This document shows, one piece after another, positions 13,626 through 37,750 of a DNA stretch of 37,750 bases (position 1 is the stretch's first letter; each line of letters begins with the position of its first letter). This DNA is from Candidatus Woesearchaeota archaeon. GTDB taxonomy: Archaea; Nanobdellota; Nanobdellia; Woesearchaeales; GW2011-AR9. The translations under genes and the position numbers were made by a program. The stretch covers positions 1 to 37,750 of the forward strand of contig JABHRR010000015.1 of NCBI GenBank assembly GCA_018670095.1, in the 5' to 3' direction. The notes beneath the pieces were generated by a model, which was not told the DNA's origin, did not search any database, and worked only from the letters and a program-made list of their open reading frames with translations.

Positions 13626-15341
13626 TTAATTTACTTTTTCTATTCTTTCTTTGTCGTAAGTGATACAATTCTGACGAACATTTCTAAGATCTTTCTTGAA
13701 CCGCTTTTTAGTCAAACCTCTATGTTCTTCGGGAAGCATGTTTTGAATTGGTTCTTCTTGTAACAAATTAAAAAGATCTTCAACTTCCCAAATGTGGTAG
13801 AATTCAAAACCATCATACTCTGGACGTGTAATACTATCTTTCTTTCTTTGACCAGCCTGTTTAAGAGATAGGTTGTTCTTTTTATCTAATATAGAACAAG
13901 GGTGATATTCAATAAATGCTTCTCCCACCAAAAAATCAATACTGTTTCGCTTTTTGCAATTAACGTGAACGTGCAGATTAATCCCTTCTGTGAATGAATC
14001 TACCAACCCATACTCACCAAGCATAATCCCCACAATCCTTTCCGGATAAGAATCAAAATGTGCTTCTTCATCTCCAAACACGTAGAAGTATGGGGCTTTA
14101 CGTGGCGGAAACAATATTTGCGTTAATTCTTTCCTTTTCTTTTCATTAACTTTTCCATTTTGATCTCTTGCTTCATTATTTATCCATACTCTATAAGCAG
14201 CGTAAAATGCTTTTGCTCCAGATTCTTTATCTTTTTGCATTTCCTCAGTTGATTTCCCTTTCCATTCTGGATTTTTTTCATAATGAGCAATCCAATGGTC
14301 AATTGTAGTATATGCAGACCAGTCATTATGTCGTGATGGAAAGATTATTTCAATTAATTCTTTTCTTATCTTTTCATTAACTGTTTCTTTATTTACCCAT
14401 GACTTGAAAGCAGCATAAAATTTTCTAGATTCTTCACCTTTTCGCATTTCATGAGTTGATTTTCCTTGCCATTCTGGGTTTTTTTCATAGTGAGCAATCC
14501 AATGATCAATTGTGATGTAAGAAGACCAATCATTTCGTTTTGGTGTGAAAATTCTTTGAGTTAATTCTTTTCTTTTCTTTTTATCCTCAATTCTATTTCC
14601 ATTAGTTGTTTCTTTTTTTGTCCATTTACTAAAAGCAACATAAAATTTTCTAGATTCTTCACCTTTTCGCATTTCATATATTGATTTCCCTTGCCATTCT
14701 GGATTTCTTTCATGGTGAGCAATCCAATGATCAATAGTGGTGTAAGAAGACCAATTATTTTTTTTTGGTGTGAAGATTCTTTTTATTAATTCTTGTTCTT
14801 TCTTTTTATTAGTTGTTCCATTTTCATTAATTGCTTCATTTTTTACCCATCTATTAAATGCATCATAAAATGCACTCGCTCCAGATTCTTTATCTTTATT
14901 CATTTCAGTTATTGATTTTCCTTGCCACTCTGGATTTCTTTCATAGTGATCAATCCAATGGTTAATTGTGGTGTAAGCAGACCAATCATTTTGTTTTGGT
15001 GTGAAAATTCTTTGTGTTAATTCATTTCTTTTTTTTTTATTCTCAATTCCATTTTCATCAGTTGCTTCTTTTTTTGTCCATGCCTTGAAAGCTTGATAAA
15101 ATGATTTAGCCCCAGATCCTTTATCTTTTTGCATTTCAGATGTTGATTTTCCTTGCCATTCTGAATACAAACTATGATAAAGTTTCCAATCATCTATTTC
15201 TTCAAGATATCTTGCACGTGGTTTTCGTTTCTCTGGATTATTAACTTCATACTCAACTAAACATCTAACTCTCTCAATAGTCTCCTCACTATATTGGGTG
15301 TTTTCTACAAGTACATTTTCCAACATATCTTCTAGTCCCAT
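13626..15341 (-). CDS. Modular repeat protein (five ~70-77 aa repeats) with C-terminal candidate PD-(D/E)XK nuclease domain
   Basis: Repeats of the form NDWSxYTTIDHWIAHYEKNPEWQGKSxxEMxK...FYxAFxxW; C-terminus SYPERIVGIML...SIDFLVGEAFIEYHP...QAGQRKKDSI resembles E...D...ExH nuclease motifs. Confidence 0.7.
   Translation of the reverse strand: MGLEDMLENVLVENTQYSEETIERVRCLVEYEVNNPEKRKPRARYLEEIDDWKLYHSLYSEWQGKSTSEMQKDKGSGAKSFYQAFKAWTKKEATDENGIENKKKRNELTQRIFTPKQNDWSAYTTINHWIDHYERNPEWQGKSITEMNKDKESGASAFYDAFNRWVKNEAINENGTTNKKKEQELIKRIFTPKKNNWSSYTTIDHWIAHHERNPEWQGKSIYEMRKGEESRKFYVAFSKWTKKETTNGNRIEDKKKRKELTQRIFTPKRNDWSSYITIDHWIAHYEKNPEWQGKSTHEMRKGEESRKFYAAFKSWVNKETVNEKIRKELIEIIFPSRHNDWSAYTTIDHWIAHYEKNPEWKGKSTEEMQKDKESGAKAFYAAYRVWINNEARDQNGKVNEKKRKELTQILFPPRKAPYFYVFGDEEAHFDSYPERIVGIMLGEYGLVDSFTEGINLHVHVNCKKRNSIDFLVGEAFIEYHPCSILDKKNNLSLKQAGQRKKDSITRPEYDGFEFYHIWEVEDLFNLLQEEPIQNMLPEEHRGLTKKRFKKDLRNVRQNCITYDKERIEKVN
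14097..15194 (-). repeat. In-frame tandem repeat array within the modular nuclease gene
   Basis: Protein residues 50-117 (degenerate first unit), 118-194, 195-269, 270-338 and 339-415. Confidence 0.9.
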
Positions 15342-19296: not shown

Positions 19297-19998
19297 ATGA
19301 ATGTTGGGAAGATTTATCAATTACCTATTAATGAAGAAACTGCTTATATCGCAGGAGTAATCGTTGGGGATGGACATATCTCTAACTCGCACAAAGCAAA
19401 TTTGACTAAATCCAAAGATTATAAAATTGCTATTGAAGTTATTGATTTGGGTTTTTTAAAAAAAGTTGAAACTTCAATTAAATCAGTGATTCAAACAAAA
19501 AGTACAATTAAAAAAAGACCAAAAAATAGAGGAAACAGAAAATCACTGTATTATTTTAATTTTAGGAACAAAAGTTTTTATTATTTTCTTACGGACACAT
19601 TGGGAATTCCTGCGGGTAGAAAATGTTCTTCAGTTAGAATTCCGCAAAAGATCTTTATTTGTATGAGTTTACAAAAACATTTTATTGCTGGTTTATTTGA
19701 TACTGATGGTGGGATCAGAGGAAATACTATCGGCTTTACTTCGGCAAGTAAATTATTAATGGATGACGTTGGAATGATACTTAAAAACTGGGGGTTCCGT
19801 TTTTATTCTGAAAAATGGTTAAACCAGAAATATCAACGAAATTATTATGGAATAAAAATATACAAAAGAGATAGCGATAGGTTTTTAAAGTATTTACCTT
19901 TAAAGAACAAAGAAAAGCTTGAGAAAGTTTTTCGTCATGTGGACGTGCCGGAGTGGTCAAACGGGCTGGATAATTCCTTGATGAAAATCAAGAGTTAG
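19297..19998 (+). CDS. LAGLIDADG-family homing endonuclease
   Basis: Two motifs, YIAGVIVGDGHIS and FIAGLFDTDGGIR. GAGGTG Shine-Dalgarno. The 3' end overlaps tRNA-Leu. Confidence 0.85.
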   Translation: MNVGKIYQLPINEETAYIAGVIVGDGHISNSHKANLTKSKDYKIAIEVIDLGFLKKVETSIKSVIQTKSTIKKRPKNRGNRKSLYYFNFRNKSFYYFLTDTLGIPAGRKCSSVRIPQKIFICMSLQKHFIAGLFDTDGGIRGNTIGFTSASKLLMDDVGMILKNWGFRFYSEKWLNQKYQRNYYGIKIYKRDSDRFLKYLPLKNKEKLEKVFRHVDVPEWSNGLDNSLMKIKS

Positions 19999-26277: not shown

Positions 26278-26667
26278 TTAATCAAACTTTTCTTGCTTAG
26301 CACGGTGAATTCTAGCAAAATATGGAACAGCTACAACATAATCTTCACCAAATCCAGCAATGTCACCATCGATTGCTTCACAAGTTTTTCTCAACTTAGA
26401 AACTGCTCTCTTAAGTTCTACTAAATCCTTGTCTTTAAGTGGTTTAATGTTTACTAAAGCAATAGTTGATCCTTCCCTAAGTACATCCAGAATTTCTTTG
26501 ATATCTTCAAATTCTTCCAGTATAAATGGTCTTACCAGAACTTTAGCTTGTTCTTCTTTAGTGGAACCTGCACCTAACTCTACATAGTGGTCGCCTTGTT
26601 CTATTTCATCTTCTTCTTCTATTGGTTTAACAAATTTGTCCTTTAATTGTAAAAAAAAGTCTTTCAT
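26278..26667 (-). CDS. sepF: SepF-like cell division protein
   Basis: KVLVRPFILEEFEDIKEILDVLREGSTIALVNIKPL...DGDIAGFGEDYVVAVP matches the DUF552/SepF core. Confidence 0.85.
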   Translation of the reverse strand: MKDFFLQLKDKFVKPIEEEDEIEQGDHYVELGAGSTKEEQAKVLVRPFILEEFEDIKEILDVLREGSTIALVNIKPLKDKDLVELKRAVSKLRKTCEAIDGDIAGFGEDYVVAVPYFARIHRAKQEKFD

Positions 26668-26789: not shown

Positions 26790-28247
26790 TCAAGTACTTA
26801 TATTGAAAACGTTTGAGTAAGCTTTTCCTTTCTTACCCCTTTTTCGAGCATATTCAACAGTTGCTCTGGGTAAACTGAAAGTCCCTACAATATTAAGTTT
26901 TGCTCTGACTTTGTACGTAATGATCCGATGCTCGTGAGCATCAAGTTCTACTAATGACCAAATAACTTTTGTTCCTTTCTTTGAATGTTTAATCTCTTTT
27001 GGTCTTAATGTTCCTAATTCTAAACTTTTTTCAACATTTGCAATGCCCGGAACTTGATCAATAATATCAATTCCTTTTATGTTTCTTTTAGTTCTATTTT
27101 TTACTTCCAAAGTAACTTTAATCTCTGATAAAGCACCTTCATTATGTTCAGTTTTAGTTGTCATTGCACTTTTACTAATTGATAAAGGTGATTGAACATA
27201 AAAATAAAATCCAGCAAAAATAAGTAAAATTGCTAAGATATAAATCACAACCCGATAATTAGTTGTAAAATTAAGAGTAACTGACTCGTTAGGACTTATA
27301 GACTGTTCCCATACTAAATATCTTTCTCCCTCAATTTTTTCTGATTTTCCTTCACTTGTTGTGAACAAAACTTTCCATAAAGAAATTGGATAGAGAACTT
27401 TTTGTGTATTTTTAACATTACCATCATTAGTAACAATCAATTCGTTATAATACCTAAACAATTTGCTATTCTCATTAACTTCTTTTTTAAATTCAGGTTG
27501 TAATGAAAGAATTTCAATTTTTTGATCTATAATTTTAGCTACTTCTCCGTTATGTTCAAAGACAAAGAAAATAATATACTCTTTTGGTTGTTGAAATTGG
27601 TTAGGATTAATTGAGAACTCAATAGTTTTCTTTTCTAGCGGTGGTAAATCTATTGTCGCCTCTTTAATAAATTCTGGCATATCACTTTGAATTTTCACTA
27701 CTAATCCTGTTAAATCTAAAGGGTTCCTGTTTTCTAAAAATAATTTGATTGAAACTCCATCTTTTGGACTAATCTTATCATTCATGTCAATTGTTGCTTT
27801 TATCGCCGGTAAATAATCAATTGGCTTTTCTGGACTTAAGTAAACTTTTAATGATTCTGTGTAAGTTTCCCCTAGATCACTAGCAATAGATATCTGAACA
27901 TAATAAATTCCTGGTTGTAAACCATCATCAAAAGCTTGAGCTTGAATTATTGTTGTGTAACTTTTTCCAGGATATAACTCAATAATCTTATCCTTCAACG
28001 GAAATGGGTCTACATTCCATCCTTGTCCTGACTGAAGAGAATAAATACTATAACGTTGTTTTTCATCAGCATTATTAGTAATTTTTAAATTAAACTGTGC
28101 TCTTTCACTAAATGCAATATGGTTATTTTTAACTGTTATTTCAATATCCGATTCCGCTAAAGAAGATGTTGCTAATACTGAAAAAATAACTAGTAAAAAA
28201 ACTGATAATAAGATAACTTTATTCACCCTCACTTTTTCCCACCTCAA
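26790..28247 (-). CDS. Secreted/membrane protein with NEW3/CARDB-like beta-sandwich domains
   Basis: Signal peptide, repeated beta-rich segments, TM helix (VIYILAILLIFAGFYFY), C-terminal DUF11-like region. Confidence 0.6.
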   Translation of the reverse strand: MRWEKVRVNKVILLSVFLLVIFSVLATSSLAESDIEITVKNNHIAFSERAQFNLKITNNADEKQRYSIYSLQSGQGWNVDPFPLKDKIIELYPGKSYTTIIQAQAFDDGLQPGIYYVQISIASDLGETYTESLKVYLSPEKPIDYLPAIKATIDMNDKISPKDGVSIKLFLENRNPLDLTGLVVKIQSDMPEFIKEATIDLPPLEKKTIEFSINPNQFQQPKEYIIFFVFEHNGEVAKIIDQKIEILSLQPEFKKEVNENSKLFRYYNELIVTNDGNVKNTQKVLYPISLWKVLFTTSEGKSEKIEGERYLVWEQSISPNESVTLNFTTNYRVVIYILAILLIFAGFYFYVQSPLSISKSAMTTKTEHNEGALSEIKVTLEVKNRTKRNIKGIDIIDQVPGIANVEKSLELGTLRPKEIKHSKKGTKVIWSLVELDAHEHRIITYKVRAKLNIVGTFSLPRATVEYARKRGKKGKAYSNVFNIST

Positions 28248-28458: not shown

Positions 28459-29019
28459 ATGGTACAAGAAAGCGCTTTTCGAGGCATAATTGGTTTTTTG
28501 GATAAGATTGGAGTTTATGATGTTATTCTACCCTTCTTACTTGTATTCACAATTGTTTTTGCAATTCTAGAAAAAACTAAAGTTTTAGGATTAGATAAAA
28601 TTGATGGTAAAGAATTTACCAAAAAGAATCTAAATTCTATGGTTGCTTTTGTAATCTCTTTTTTGGTTATCGCTTCTACACAATTAGTTTCCGTAATTAA
28701 TGAAGTTTTAGCTAACGTTGTTTTATTACTAATCTTAGCGGTTTGTTTTTTAATGTTAGTTGGCGTATTTTTTGGAGATCAAGAATTTACTTTGAAAGAT
28801 TTTCCTGGTTGGAGTAAATTTCTGATGATCTTAATGTTTATTGGCATTGTGGTTATTTTTCTTAATGCTTTAGATTGGTTAAAATATATTTTAGTCATAT
28901 TTGTTTATTGGGATGCAGAATGGGCATCTACCATCATCTTTTTCATTATCATCCTTGGTTTCATTGTGTATATCATTAGGGATCCAAACACAAATAAATC
29001 AAGCGAAAAGAAAGATTAA
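28459..29019 (+). CDS. Polytopic membrane protein, paralogue 1 of 3
   Basis: YDVILPFLLVFTIVFAILEKTKVLG shared with the next two ORFs. Confidence 0.75.
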   Translation: MVQESAFRGIIGFLDKIGVYDVILPFLLVFTIVFAILEKTKVLGLDKIDGKEFTKKNLNSMVAFVISFLVIASTQLVSVINEVLANVVLLLILAVCFLMLVGVFFGDQEFTLKDFPGWSKFLMILMFIGIVVIFLNALDWLKYILVIFVYWDAEWASTIIFFIIILGFIVYIIRDPNTNKSSEKKD

Positions 29020-29060
29020 TAAAACTTAGAATAATTATAACAAAAAAGGAGGAATATAAA

Positions 29061-29636
29061 ATGGCATTTTCAAATTTGGGTTTTTCACAATTAGCATATT
29101 ATTTTCAGACGTACGGAATCATGGATTTCTTGTTACCGTTCTTACTAGTTTTTACAATTATATACGCGGTAATGCAAAAAACAAAAATTCTTGGTGACAA
29201 GAAGAACTTTAATGTTATAATCGCTTTAGTAATAGCTTTAACTTTCGTTGTTCCTCACGTTATTGGTTATTACCCTTTAGGTTATGACCCAGTTCAAGTG
29301 ATGAACGAATCTTTACCTAGTGTTGCTTTAGTTGCTGTTGCAGCCGTTATGCTTTTAATATTAATGGGCGTTTTTGGTGCTGATTTTTCTAAGTCAGCAG
29401 CTCCGATTATTGCTATTGGAGCAATTGCATTTGTAATTTATATTTTTGGATCTTCATTAAGTATTTGGACTGGCCCTTCAGATTTATTTTATTGGTGGGG
29501 TTCAGATGTTACAGAACTATTAATTATTCTGCTTATGTTTGGGTTGGTAGTGTTCTTTATAGTTAAAGAACCAAGCGACAAATCTAGAGGCTCTGAAATG
29601 ATGAAGAGTGTTGGAAAATTATTCGAGAAGAAATAA
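29061..29636 (+). CDS. Polytopic membrane protein, paralogue 2 of 3
   Basis: MDFLLPFLLVFTIIYAVMQKTKILG shared motif; GGAGG Shine-Dalgarno. Confidence 0.75.
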   Translation: MAFSNLGFSQLAYYFQTYGIMDFLLPFLLVFTIIYAVMQKTKILGDKKNFNVIIALVIALTFVVPHVIGYYPLGYDPVQVMNESLPSVALVAVAAVMLLILMGVFGADFSKSAAPIIAIGAIAFVIYIFGSSLSIWTGPSDLFYWWGSDVTELLIILLMFGLVVFFIVKEPSDKSRGSEMMKSVGKLFEKK

Positions 29637-29639
29637 ACA

Positions 29640-30197
29640 ATGGTAACGGTACTTGATTTAGGATTAATACAAGCGTTTGACGTAATCTTCCCAGTTTTGT
29701 TAGTTTTCGCTTTAGTCTTTGCTATTTTTCAGAAAACTAAAGTTGTTGGTGAATCTGTAGGAATAAATTCAATTATCGCCATTGCTGTAGCATTTATGGT
29801 CTTAATTTCAGACACTTTAACTCAAATAATAAATTTTATGGTGCCGTGGTTCGCTGTTGTTATTGTTTTTTTTGTACTTTTAATTTTAATTTTTCAAATG
29901 TTTGGAGCAACCGATGCAGATTTGGCAACAGCAGTAAAAGATAAAAGTGTTTATTGGGCAATCTTAGGAATAGCACTAATTATTCTATTGGCGGCTCTTG
30001 GAAATGTTTTAGGTCAATCATTTACCGAGAAATCATTCGAAGCAGGACAAAATGTTACTGTTACCGGTAGTTCAGGAGTAGCTTCATCAAGTTTTGAAGG
30101 TAGTGTAACTGCAACTTTATTTCATCCAAAAGTATTGGGAATGATGATCATGTTTGCAATCGCAGTATTCGCTGTAGCACTCTTAAGCGGCGGATAA
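29640..30197 (+). CDS. Polytopic membrane protein, paralogue 3 of 3
   Basis: FDVIFPVLLVFALVFAIFQKTKVVG shared motif; starts 3 nt after the preceding stop codon. Confidence 0.75.
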   Translation: MVTVLDLGLIQAFDVIFPVLLVFALVFAIFQKTKVVGESVGINSIIAIAVAFMVLISDTLTQIINFMVPWFAVVIVFFVLLILIFQMFGATDADLATAVKDKSVYWAILGIALIILLAALGNVLGQSFTEKSFEAGQNVTVTGSSGVASSSFEGSVTATLFHPKVLGMMIMFAIAVFAVALLSGG

Positions 30198-30237
30198 AAA
30201 TAAAAAGAAATTTTTTTAAATATTTTTTAAACTATAC

Positions 30238-30801
30238 TTACTCTTTCTTAACGCCCTGAGTAATACTCTTCAGTTCTTTAACGTTCTCAACAAATTCAGG
30301 CACTACATCTTTGAAAACTTTACCAACGGCTTTAAGTTCTGTACCTACATCACTCATTCTAGAATCATAATCCTCTAATCTTCCTAAAACACCCTGATGT
30401 AATATTTTAAAATCTTCTTTAAGTTTCTCTAAATCGTTAAGCATTTTGGTTTGCTTTTCTTCAACTTTTTCTTTCCACTCAACAATTTTTTTTACTTCAC
30501 CAATTAAAGCATCCCATTTCTCGTCAATCATACTTTCTGTAATCGCTTCAATTCTTTCATAGATGTTACCCTCATCACCGCTTGGCTGAGCACCCATTGA
30601 AGGACCACCAGGCATAGGGCCAGGCATAGTTGGTTCTTGAGGCATTGCAGGCATACCACCAGGCATTGCAGGAGTATTAGCGTTTTCTATTGCAGCATTA
30701 ATTTGTTTTGGGTTCATTCCATTCTTTCTAAGTTCTTCTTCAATTAATTCATCAGTAAGACCTTGTTGTCTTAATTGTAATATTTGTTGAACTGGATCCA
30801 T
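30238..30801 (-). CDS. Coiled-coil protein with small N-terminal helical domain and Pro/Met/Gly-rich linker
   Basis: LRQQGLTDELIEEELRKNGMNPKQINAAIENA, then PMPGGPSMG linker, then heptad-rich region. Confidence 0.7.
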   Translation of the reverse strand: MDPVQQILQLRQQGLTDELIEEELRKNGMNPKQINAAIENANTPAMPGGMPAMPQEPTMPGPMPGGPSMGAQPSGDEGNIYERIEAITESMIDEKWDALIGEVKKIVEWKEKVEEKQTKMLNDLEKLKEDFKILHQGVLGRLEDYDSRMSDVGTELKAVGKVFKDVVPEFVENVKELKSITQGVKKE

Positions 30802-30830
30802 TTTATATCACCTACATATTTTTTTAATTA

Positions 30831-31265
30831 TTAGTTGAATGGGCTATGTGTTTCATCTTTTGGAACTAATTTAACTTTTTCTGGTTTATTTAACTTTTGT
30901 TCGACCATCCTTTCTAAATCTTTCTGGGTAACAAAAGTCATCGGGTTCCATAATTCCATATATTTTTTCAATGTTTTTACTTCTTCTATCCCTGCAGTTT
31001 GTTTAAGTTCTTTAACTATTAAGTCCATTTTCTCAATAGTTTTCTCGTGGTCATGTCTGAATTCTAACAAATCTGCACTCGTATCTTTCATATCTTTTTT
31101 CAAATCATTGGTTCTTTTGATAAAATCGTTTTTAATCATGTCAACTTCTCTTAAAAGATTGTTAACTTTTCCTTCCAATGCTTTTACCCAGAGGTACAAT
31201 TTAGCTTGGTCAAATCCTCCTTCTTGTTCCGGTTTAACTGCCGGTTTCTTAGTTCCAAAGTCCAT
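30831..31265 (-). CDS. Coiled-coil protein, possibly ArlC/D/E-like
   Basis: MDFGTKKPAVKPEQ start preferred (ATG 31265); YMELWNPMTFVTQKDLERMVEQ near C-terminus. Confidence 0.6.
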   Translation of the reverse strand: MDFGTKKPAVKPEQEGGFDQAKLYLWVKALEGKVNNLLREVDMIKNDFIKRTNDLKKDMKDTSADLLEFRHDHEKTIEKMDLIVKELKQTAGIEEVKTLKKYMELWNPMTFVTQKDLERMVEQKLNKPEKVKLVPKDETHSPFN

Positions 31266-31378
31266 AATTATCTTAAATAAAGAAATCAATATAATAAAGT
31301 TATGGGAGTACTCTAAAGTAGTATTGCCAAAATATAACACAACATTTAAATTCCTTTACCAATTTAATATATAAAAAG

Positions 31379-33691
31379 ATGGTGCTAACAGAAAAAAAGT
31401 GTTTTGAGTACGAAACTATCCATGAAGGAGAAAATAAGATTCTTAAGATTCCTTTAGAAAGATGTACCTTCCCTCCTTCAATTGAATATAGTGATTTGTG
31501 TATGGCTAAAGTTGTTGACGCTTTGTTAGAAGTTACTGGGGTAACCATAATCAATCTAACCCAATTAAGAGAGTACGAATATGATTATTCACAAACTCAT
31601 CTACTAATTGAATTGGCTTTACTTTACAAGAGATTAAACAAAGATGAACGGCTTGCTTATTCCCATCTTGTTCTTGATCCGCAACATGAACGTTATATTC
31701 GTGGAAGTTATGCCAAATTTCAAAGGATCATTTCCAAATTGTTGAAAGAAGACCCTTTAGCTGCTTACATTACATTAAAACGTTTAGAAGTGAGAGAAAA
31801 AACTAAACTAAACAATTTAATCGATGAAAGACATTCAGTCTCACAACAAAAATTTGTTGAAGTTTTAATGGCAGTAATTCAAGAGCTGGAAAAGTTAAAG
31901 ATTATTCAACAATTAATGCCCCATACTAAAGAAGAATACAAGTTAGGTTCTAGAGATATTTATGGCAATATTTTTCATCCTACTACTCGACCAGATTTTA
32001 TGTATACTAGATTAATTTTAGAATTTCCAGAAGGTAATTTAGAAGAAAGTTATCAGTTTGGTGATGGTGAAGATAAGTGTGATGTTAACATTTTTTCTTT
32101 TGATAATAATATTAAAACTATGTTTCATTTAACTCCACCTGAATTTCGTTTCACTGAAGAAGTTTATGAATTGTTGGATGATGCAAAAAGAATTATGTCT
32201 GAACATAAACCCAGTCGAGAAGAGTTTGTTGATCCTCAGAGAATGAGAGAAGTTTTCTTTAACATTGGTAAAGATTTATTGAACGATTTGATTGAACATA
32301 AGAAGCTGAAACTTTCTGATGATAAAGTTAATCAGTTAGCTCAAGCTTTACTGCGTTACACAGTTGGTTTTGGATTGATAGAACTTTTATTGTCAGATCC
32401 GAAAGTTCAAGACGTAAATATTAACGCCCCTAACGGAGAATTGCCAATTTTTATTGTTCATCAGGATTATGGTGATTGTTATACCAATATTTATCCTACT
32501 CGGCAAGAAGTTGATTCCTGGGCAACTAAATTGAGATTAATTTCCGGTAGACCTTTAGATGAAGCAAATCCTATTTTGGATACAGAACTTAAAGTTGAAG
32601 GCTTCACATCAAGAGTCTCTGCGATTACCGCCCCTTTAAGCCCCCTAGGGTTAGCTTTTTCATTTAGAAGACATCGGGATTATCCTTGGACATTTCCTCT
32701 CTATATGCAATCACATGTTAGGTATATGGGTGCAATGGCCGCCGGTCTGTTAAGTTTTATTATTGATAATAACGCAACAATCTTAGTTGCCGGTACTCGA
32801 TCTTCAGGAAAGAGCAGTTTGTTAGGAAGTTTCTTAGTTGAAATGTCTCGACGTTCAAGAATTATTACTATTGAAGATACTTTTGAACTTCCGCAAGAAG
32901 CAATGCGGGCTTTAGGTTATAACGTTGAAAATATGAAAGTTGCCGGTGCTTTATCTGCTCCTGGTTCAGAAGTTGATCCTAGTATTGGTATTCGTTCAAC
33001 ATTACGTTTAGGAGATTCCGCAATCTTTGTCGGAGAAGTTAGATCCCACGAGGCCGTAGCTTTGTTTGAAGCGATGCGAGTTGGTGCAGCAGCAAACGTT
33101 GTTGCAGGAACAATTCACGCTGATAGCCCTTATGGTGTTTATGACCGGGTTGTAAATGATATTGGTGTTCCAAAAACTTCATTTAAAGCGATTGATATTA
33201 TTGTAACAACTAATCCCGTAATTTCTGGTTTGAAAAAATATAAAAGAGTTTTACGAATTACTGAAGTTAGAAAACAGTGGGATGAAGATCCGCTAAAAGA
33301 ACATGCTTTTGTAGATTTGATGGTTTATAATCCTAAAACAGATAAGTTAGAAATTACTGACGATTTGATTAACGGTAATTCTGAAATATTGAAAAGAATG
33401 GCTGGTAAAGTTAAAGAGTTTGCTGGCGATTGGGATGCTGTCTGGAATAATATTCAATTAAGAGCAGATTGTAAACAAGCGATTGTTGATATTGCTGCAG
33501 AGTTTAAAGATGATCAAATTTTGGAAGCAGAATTTGTAGTTGGCGCTAACGATATGTTTAAATTAATTTCTGATCGAGTTAAAGATAAGCACGGGACATT
33601 AGATTCATCTCGAATCTTGTTTGATTTCAAAGAATGGTTAAGAAAAGAAGTCAGAAAGAAAGTTAAAGAAGAATCATCATCATTCATCTAA
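31379..33691 (+). CDS. Type II/IV secretion or archaellum ATPase (ArlI/GspE-like)
   Basis: Walker A GTRSSGKSS; FVGEVRSHEAVALFEAMRVGAAANVVAGTIHADSPYGVYDRVV is the secretion ATPase Walker B/His box region. Confidence 0.92.
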   Translation: MVLTEKKCFEYETIHEGENKILKIPLERCTFPPSIEYSDLCMAKVVDALLEVTGVTIINLTQLREYEYDYSQTHLLIELALLYKRLNKDERLAYSHLVLDPQHERYIRGSYAKFQRIISKLLKEDPLAAYITLKRLEVREKTKLNNLIDERHSVSQQKFVEVLMAVIQELEKLKIIQQLMPHTKEEYKLGSRDIYGNIFHPTTRPDFMYTRLILEFPEGNLEESYQFGDGEDKCDVNIFSFDNNIKTMFHLTPPEFRFTEEVYELLDDAKRIMSEHKPSREEFVDPQRMREVFFNIGKDLLNDLIEHKKLKLSDDKVNQLAQALLRYTVGFGLIELLLSDPKVQDVNINAPNGELPIFIVHQDYGDCYTNIYPTRQEVDSWATKLRLISGRPLDEANPILDTELKVEGFTSRVSAITAPLSPLGLAFSFRRHRDYPWTFPLYMQSHVRYMGAMAAGLLSFIIDNNATILVAGTRSSGKSSLLGSFLVEMSRRSRIITIEDTFELPQEAMRALGYNVENMKVAGALSAPGSEVDPSIGIRSTLRLGDSAIFVGEVRSHEAVALFEAMRVGAAANVVAGTIHADSPYGVYDRVVNDIGVPKTSFKAIDIIVTTNPVISGLKKYKRVLRITEVRKQWDEDPLKEHAFVDLMVYNPKTDKLEITDDLINGNSEILKRMAGKVKEFAGDWDAVWNNIQLRADCKQAIVDIAAEFKDDQILEAEFVVGANDMFKLISDRVKDKHGTLDSSRILFDFKEWLRKEVRKKVKEESSSFI

Positions 33692-37144: not shown

Positions 37145-37750
37145 TTATTTTATTACTATTGGACCAGTGAAAGCATCATCAGTATTGTATGCCCAAAGTT
37201 CTTTACCAGTTGCAGTGTAAAAAGCGTAAAGATAATCAGATTCACCTAAAACGTATCCTACGCCTCCTTTTACCACCACTGAACCCTTGAACCCATCATC
37301 AGTATTGTATGCCCAAAGTTCTTTACCAGTTGCAGCGTTAAAAGCGTAAAGATAATCAGATTCACCGATAACGTATCCTACACCACTTTCTATTACTATC
37401 GGACTAGTGAAAGCATCATCAGTATTGTATGCCCAAAGTTCTTTACCAGTTGCAGCGTTAAAAGCGTAAACATAATCAGATTCACCAAGAACGTATCCTA
37501 TTCTGCCTTCTATCACTATCGGACCAGTGAAAGCATCATCAGTATTGTATGCCCAAAGTTCTTCACCAGTTGCAGTGTCAAAAGCGTAAACATAATCAGA
37601 TTCACCGATAACATATCCTACTCTGCCTTCTATCACTATTGGACCAGTGAAAGCATCATCAGTATTGTATGCCCAAAGTTCTTTACCAGTTGCAGCGTTA
37701 AAAGGGTAAACATAATCAGATTCACCAAGAACGTATCCTATTCTGCCTTC
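37145..37750 (-). CDS. PQQ-type beta-propeller repeat protein, C-terminal part (5' end outside window)
   Basis: Repeated 40-aa unit VIGESDYVYAFNAATGKELWAYNTDDAFTGPIVIEGRVGY; frame appears open to the window edge. Confidence 0.8.
   Translation of the reverse strand, partial: EGRIGYVLGESDYVYPFNAATGKELWAYNTDDAFTGPIVIEGRVGYVIGESDYVYAFDTATGEELWAYNTDDAFTGPIVIEGRIGYVLGESDYVYAFNAATGKELWAYNTDDAFTSPIVIESGVGYVIGESDYLYAFNAATGKELWAYNTDDGFKGSVVVKGGVGYVLGESDYLYAFYTATGKELWAYNTDDAFTGPIVIK
37161..37750. repeat. 120-bp tandem repeat, about five copies
   Basis: GACCAGTGAAAGCATCATCAGTATTGTATGCCCAAAGTTCTTTACCAGTTGCAG recurs with 120-bp period from 37161 to the end with few substitutions. Confidence 0.95.

Follow-up and report, generated by a model that had tools for sequence, protein, structure and literature searches.

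A conserved block of three membrane paralogues, two coiled-coil proteins and a secretion-type ATPase as the likely inner core of a type IV filament machine in Nanobdellota

The first 37,750 nucleotides of contig JABHRR010000015.1 from a Candidatus Woesearchaeota archaeon (assembly GCA_018670095.1), referred to here as the window, carry between positions 28459 and 33691 three tandem membrane protein genes (M1, M2 and M3), two coiled-coil protein genes (CC1 and CC2) and the gene for a secretion/pilus-type ATPase. This locus likely encodes the inner core of a machine of the type IV filament superfamily, to which the M triplet and CC1/CC2 have been added, and the machine probably builds a surface filament. 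The defining parts of the superfamily are all found: a GspE/PilB/ArlI-type ATPase, a platform protein with T2SSF domains (PLAT), an A24 prepilin peptidase, and linked genes for putative class III prepilins. Judged by sequence searches, the block is near-universal in the phylum of the window and also occurs in Aenigmarchaeota. An earlier reading of the window, made from its letters alone (the original prediction), had proposed a variant pilus/archaellum-like or secretion machine with triplicated membrane components, a proposal that the gene neighbourhood, PLAT and the linked prepilin-like genes all support.

The gene order is highly regular. A search with the ATPase alone returned 46 loci; in most of them, where the contig extends far enough, M1-M2-M3 share one strand, CC1-CC2 occupy the opposite one, and the ATPase follows. 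Twenty loci from other families of the phylum repeat this order and have PLAT as the next gene after the ATPase, a few of them with an uncalled or cut gene; these were picked where the ATPase and PLAT or M1 were already together, and show order rather than linkage frequency. Linkage frequency comes from matches that were not selected for proximity, being the best-scoring part of each list: among the matches listed, M1 and the ATPase lie within 15 kb of each other in 76 of 102 genomes, and the ATPase and PLAT in 86 of 106. The block extends to a second phylum, since M matches occur in 37 of 57 Aenigmarchaeota genomes, and six of seven loci from this group, selected for their M arrays, have the arrangement PLAT-ATPase, CC2-CC1 and three to four or more tandem M genes. 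Conservation of the neighbourhood across DPANN genomes, one of the comparisons on which the original prediction was to stand or fall, is strong. A full M/CC/ATPase/PLAT block is also present on a contig labelled Candidatus Aminicenantes bacterium (L026), but it groups with DPANN sequences and is a probable mis-binned record.

The prevalence of the parts was estimated in 279 genomes spread over the phylum (Nanobdellota, or Nanoarchaeota in the wide sense). M is found in 268 of these (E<=1e-4), the ATPase profile in 275 (E<=1e-30, with 266 better than 1e-100), PLAT in 271 and the A24 peptidase in 268.

The ATPase (31379-33691, plus strand; 770 aa) belongs to the GspE/ArlI/TadA superfamily of hexameric ATPases. 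It matches T2SSE (PF00437) above the cut-off (4e-14), and its relatives in the PDB are the A. fulgidus protein 2oap (2.5e-30), CpaF and FlaI. The motifs Walker A (GTRSSGKS), EDT, GEVR and GTIH are intact, with Walker A, the Asp, GEVR and the His invariant in the family. Residues 1-245 form an N-terminal extension that is conserved though it has no match in the PDB, which bears out the earlier description of an ArlI/GspE-like ATPase with an unusually long N-terminal region. The genome of the window has no further T2SSE or T2SSF match, the PF00482 search for the latter missing PLAT itself. The catalytic region of the ATPase is interrupted by an intein of about 500 aa in the loci L023 (10001-13789; Intein_splicing 1.4e-17 and LAGLIDADG 4e-21), L027, L043 and L046, so that this ATPase is a repeated intein target.

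PLAT is by sequence and predicted fold a GspF/ArlJ/TadC-like platform protein. Across the phylum its usual position is directly downstream of the ATPase; in the genome of the window it is encoded on another contig (C89:15910-18096), as a double-T2SSF protein of about 730 aa with nine hydrophobic spans by scan. PF00482 alone misses it in this genome, where it was found with the family's own sequence as the query. T2SSF matches appear in four of 16 family members (best 4.8e-5), and a profile of conventional TadB/C-type T2SSF proteins aligns to PLAT in hhalign with an E-value of 1.5e-6. The predicted structure resembles the cytoplasmic domain of EpsF/GspF (2vmb; probability 0.98, target TM-score 0.70, 3.3 A) and SpoIIIAB (probability 0.95), the Foldseek E-values being weak themselves, as the domain match is short. 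The original prediction was correct that the window holds neither a platform protein nor a pilin, yet both are present elsewhere in the same genome, and PLAT is the ArlJ-like protein that was to be sought there.

The PLAT-linked prepilin-like genes are the strongest single argument for a type IV filament machine. Directly after PLAT and on its strand, six loci of sister lineages (L125, L126, L127, L129/L032, L035 and L036) have two to five genes for putative prepilins, judged as such by their class III signal pattern alone (for example MKNKRGQGISMDVIIITIIVVIVLVIV and MIMRKGQISMNTIVYVAIALLVLVLIV). Larger prepilin-signal proteins of 275-533 aa also adjoin PLAT in sister lineages. In the genome of the window, two genes for pilin-like proteins of 179-182 aa with class III signals (NKKG/SLSLSINAVIVIVIAF... 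and MKKKA/ALGLSVNTLVVI...) lie on contig C71 beside the A24 prepilin peptidase gene (7.5e-17). Of 145 genomes of the order, 134 have homologues of the first; these often occur as tandem pairs and share the conserved signature KK(A/G)(S/A)LxLSINAIV. The genes beside the A24 peptidase in other families encode HIT-family and other non-pilin proteins and were rejected as pilins; the linkage of peptidase and pilins is therefore local to the relatives of the window. Two more coiled-coil genes, possibly for accessory proteins, lie divergent to the prepilin peptidase gene on C71 (L131:6856-8256).

M1 (28459-29019; 186 aa), M2 (29061-29636; 191 aa) and M3 (29640-30197; 185 aa), all on the plus strand, each have five transmembrane spans, and M3 has a longer predicted outer loop before the last of these. 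On sequence comparison they are true paralogues, far beyond chance: BLASTP of the window copies gives 7e-14 for M1/M2, 7e-12 for M1/M3 and 1e-11 for M2/M3. The open reading frames and the shared N-terminal motif first noticed in them are confirmed. Comparison of the orthologue profiles gives 99.9% for M1/M2 (E 3e-33), 98.9% for M1/M3 and 98.8% for M2/M3, and the M1/M2 match shows that their likeness spans almost the whole length. Five hydrophobic spans are seen in 82 of 84 M members, and the positive-inside rule predicts an N-out/C-in topology, with the N-terminus out in 82 of 84. The shared motif would therefore end in a basic EKTK/QKTK loop on the cytoplasmic side. In a maximum-likelihood tree of 83 M proteins, M3, M1 and M2 form separate, well-supported groups (100/100, 98/96 and 99/93, respectively), with one row called M1 by best score grouping with M2. 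This places the triplication before the radiation of the phylum.

The M proteins do not resemble a described family. No Pfam family (single-member and family-wide searches) or NCBIfam family matches M1-M3 above its curated cut-off, and among the matches listed there are only scattered weak ones below it (best 5.7e-5). The AlphaFold model of M1 is all-helical (pLDDT 81, pTM 0.53), and Foldseek against the PDB gives nothing better than E 0.57. Membership of M1-M3 in a known family of transporters or membrane enzymes, including the unrelated transporter family that the original prediction had allowed for as a counter-explanation, is rejected on these results, and derivation of M from the membrane part of PLAT/TadC is rejected on a negative profile comparison.

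CC1 (30238-30801) and CC2 (30831-31265), both on the minus strand, are the two coiled-coil proteins reported earlier. CC1 has a short N-terminal helix-turn-helix/UBA-like segment and a Pro/Gly-rich linker, and CC2 ends in a conserved YxxxWNPxxFVTxxDL motif. The open reading frame of CC2 was listed to 31340, but its true start is probably the ATG at 31265, since most orthologues begin there. Neither a signal nor a transmembrane span is predicted in 52 of 55 CC1/CC2 members, and the three exceptions resemble over-extended starts; a cytoplasmic location is therefore most likely. FlaC_arch is absent among the leading Pfam matches listed for the 55 members, and an identity of CC1/CC2 with FlaC/D/E is rejected on these scans, which may have missed a divergent homologue.

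In the type IV filament superfamily, ATP hydrolysis by a hexameric ATPase turns or pushes the platform protein, and processed pilins are extracted from the membrane. By analogy, the ATPase of this locus would drive the double-T2SSF platform PLAT, which would lift prepilin-like subunits, processed by the A24 peptidase, out of the membrane. That three ancient paralogues of equal topology are kept together suggests that M1, M2 and M3 form a hetero-oligomeric ring or scaffold, probably in the membrane around the platform. ArlCDE surrounds the archaellum motor, and in a similar manner the cytoplasmic basic loop and C-termini of the M proteins probably dock CC1/CC2. All of these parts probably form one machine, with a putative role in surface or cell-cell attachment.

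Several points weigh against this reading. The M proteins have no detectable homology to any known part of a type IV pilus (T4P), and their place as physical parts of the machine is argued from co-occurrence and from the conservation of their linkage. Seven genomes lack both M and the canonical ATPase where 0.5 are expected (p 2e-8), the ATPase and PLAT are co-absent with p 6e-10, and genomes without M often lack PLAT too, but such co-absence of linked genes in metagenome-assembled genomes (MAGs) may reflect contig dropout. Genomes that lack the A24 peptidase are not significantly more likely to be without M, ATPase or PLAT as well (p 0.06-0.28). In the genome of the window the platform protein and pilins are unlinked from the locus, and many relatives also have a conventional TadB/C system, which the pilins and peptidase could serve, although the genome of the window itself shows no second T2SSE or T2SSF match.

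The main competitor, though an unlikely one, is a T4P-derived device for secretion or substance exchange, with a pseudopilus or channel like that of the type II secretion system, in which M1-M3 would be the conduit and the pilin-like proteins a piston only. The block is near-universal down to the smallest genomes, a simple archaeal pilus would not normally include three polytopic paralogues, and the candidate pilins of the window's own genome are short; the larger prepilin-signal proteins beside PLAT could be cargo or minor pilins. This device would not account well for the several copies of prepilin-like genes; M is unlike any known channel, and no outer pore or dedicated cargo was identified.

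It is somewhat less probable still that M1-M3 stand outside the pilus machine, as conserved neighbours that have some other role in the membrane, for instance in maintaining the envelope, leaving the ATPase, PLAT and perhaps CC1/CC2 as a conventional archaeal T4P. The lack of homology between M and T4P parts would fit such a role, as would the separation of M and ATPase in a quarter of the genomes, to which MAG fragmentation contributes. Conservation of a block with tandem M paralogues across two phyla, and joint absence of M and the canonical ATPase far above expectation, speak against it. An ordinary or degenerate archaellum is largely refuted already and highly improbable: archaellum FlaI is the best NCBIfam match of the ATPase (6.5e-37), but its 127 bits are far from the equivalog cut-off of 550, CC1/CC2 have no FlaC match among the leading ones listed, and for Nanoarchaeota a true archaellum and T4P systems have been described as distinct (PMC6142677).

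The proposed filament machine has parallels in several known systems. With the archaellum motor (ArlI, ArlJ and ArlCDE) it shares a related ATPase, a T2SSF platform and cytoplasmic coiled-coil accessories, but its ATPase is about 250 aa longer, its platform is large, and three five-span paralogues are added. The Tad pilus of bacteria and archaea (CpaF, TadB and TadC) has an ATPase of the same superfamily and T2SSF domains; here, one large platform protein replaces the TadB/TadC pair, and the ATPase falls below the TadA-family cut-off (117 bits against 373). The archaeal T4P described by Makarova et al. 2016 (PMC4858521) likewise have an ATPase, a TadC-like platform, an A24 peptidase and class III pilins, whereas the present machine is near-universal in one phylum, and M1-M3 and CC1-CC2 are not among the features described in the parts of that study consulted here. 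That study noted nanoarchaeal ATPases that lack recognisable cognate pilins.

The block is almost certainly locus 2 of Hamm et al. 2024 (PMC11291902), matched by gene content and lineages rather than by sequences. Their main text describes two loci of T4P homologues, with CpaF, TadC and coiled-coil proteins, that are conserved in cluster 2 DPANN and for which a role in host interaction is proposed. Locus 2 similarly consists of an ATPase, a TadC-like platform and two coiled-coil proteins, and it occurs in Woesearchaeota, Pacearchaeota, Nanoarchaeota, Aenigmarchaeota, Nanohaloarchaeota and Undinarchaeota. The M paralogues and locus-linked pilins are not mentioned in that main text. The coiled-coil proteins are likened there to viral attachment proteins, whereas CC1/CC2 seem to be cytoplasmic, which suits ArlCDE-like accessories surrounding the motor more than fibres for external attachment. 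While such DPANN loci with ATPase, TadC and coiled-coil content had in part been reported, new here are the M triplet and its family, the near-universality and age of the triplet, its occurrence in a second phylum as well, and the finding that it is linked to prepilin-like genes.

Descriptions of archaeal pilus systems usually treat them as accessories. In this phylum of reduced and mostly symbiotic cells, 96-99% of the genomes sampled keep a pilus-type motor together with membrane paralogues of its own. This retention, together with the same block in a second phylum, speaks for a core function, for which contact with a host or another cell is plausible. A FlaJ/TadC homologue of Nanoarchaeota with a high density of non-synonymous SNPs has been proposed to be involved in symbiosis (PMC6142677). 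Cryo-tomography of Nanobdella aerobiophila and of YN1 has revealed an attachment organelle composed of a cone, a portal and an intercellular filament, whose protein composition is stated to be unknown, and the YN1 authors suggest that such organelles may be ubiquitous in Nanobdellota (PMC11104419, PMC11420986). The near-universal block offers a specific candidate for the means by which these cells keep hold of their hosts. That M1-M3, CC1/CC2, the ATPase and PLAT form the base of this organelle is speculative and rather doubtful; if true, the organelle would amount to a remodelled type IV filament machine whose membrane scaffold is triplicated. M1-M3, CC1-2, the ATPase, PLAT, the pilin pair and the peptidase provide a defined gene set for testing DPANN attachment structures.

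Two neighbours of the block are not part of its core. A DUF11 protein with a signal peptide, extracellular domains and a transmembrane span at residues 333-351 is encoded divergently to M1 (26790-28247, minus strand), followed by the cell-division anchor SepF (26278-26667, minus strand). They adjoin the M triplet only in the window's own lineage, in whose loci PLAT is often no longer nearby; in other families this position is taken by a translin-like gene or an S2P-like protease. On this limited adjacency both neighbours are rejected as machine parts. The DUF11 protein had been described as a NEW3-like secreted protein: a secreted or anchored protein it is, but not a conserved part of the block. 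A promoter-like scan of the region gave nothing above chance, and a tRNA search of the window found none. Elsewhere in the window are a free-standing LAGLIDADG_3 homing-endonuclease-like open reading frame (19297-19998, plus strand; 1.7e-13) and a 571-aa protein of repeated units of about 70 aa (HWIAHYEKNPEWQGKS...) without a Pfam match (13626-15341, minus strand). Near the right end, positions 37145-37636 (minus strand) encode near-perfect tandem PQQ-like repeats (GYVxGESDYxYAFxxATGxELWAYNTDD).

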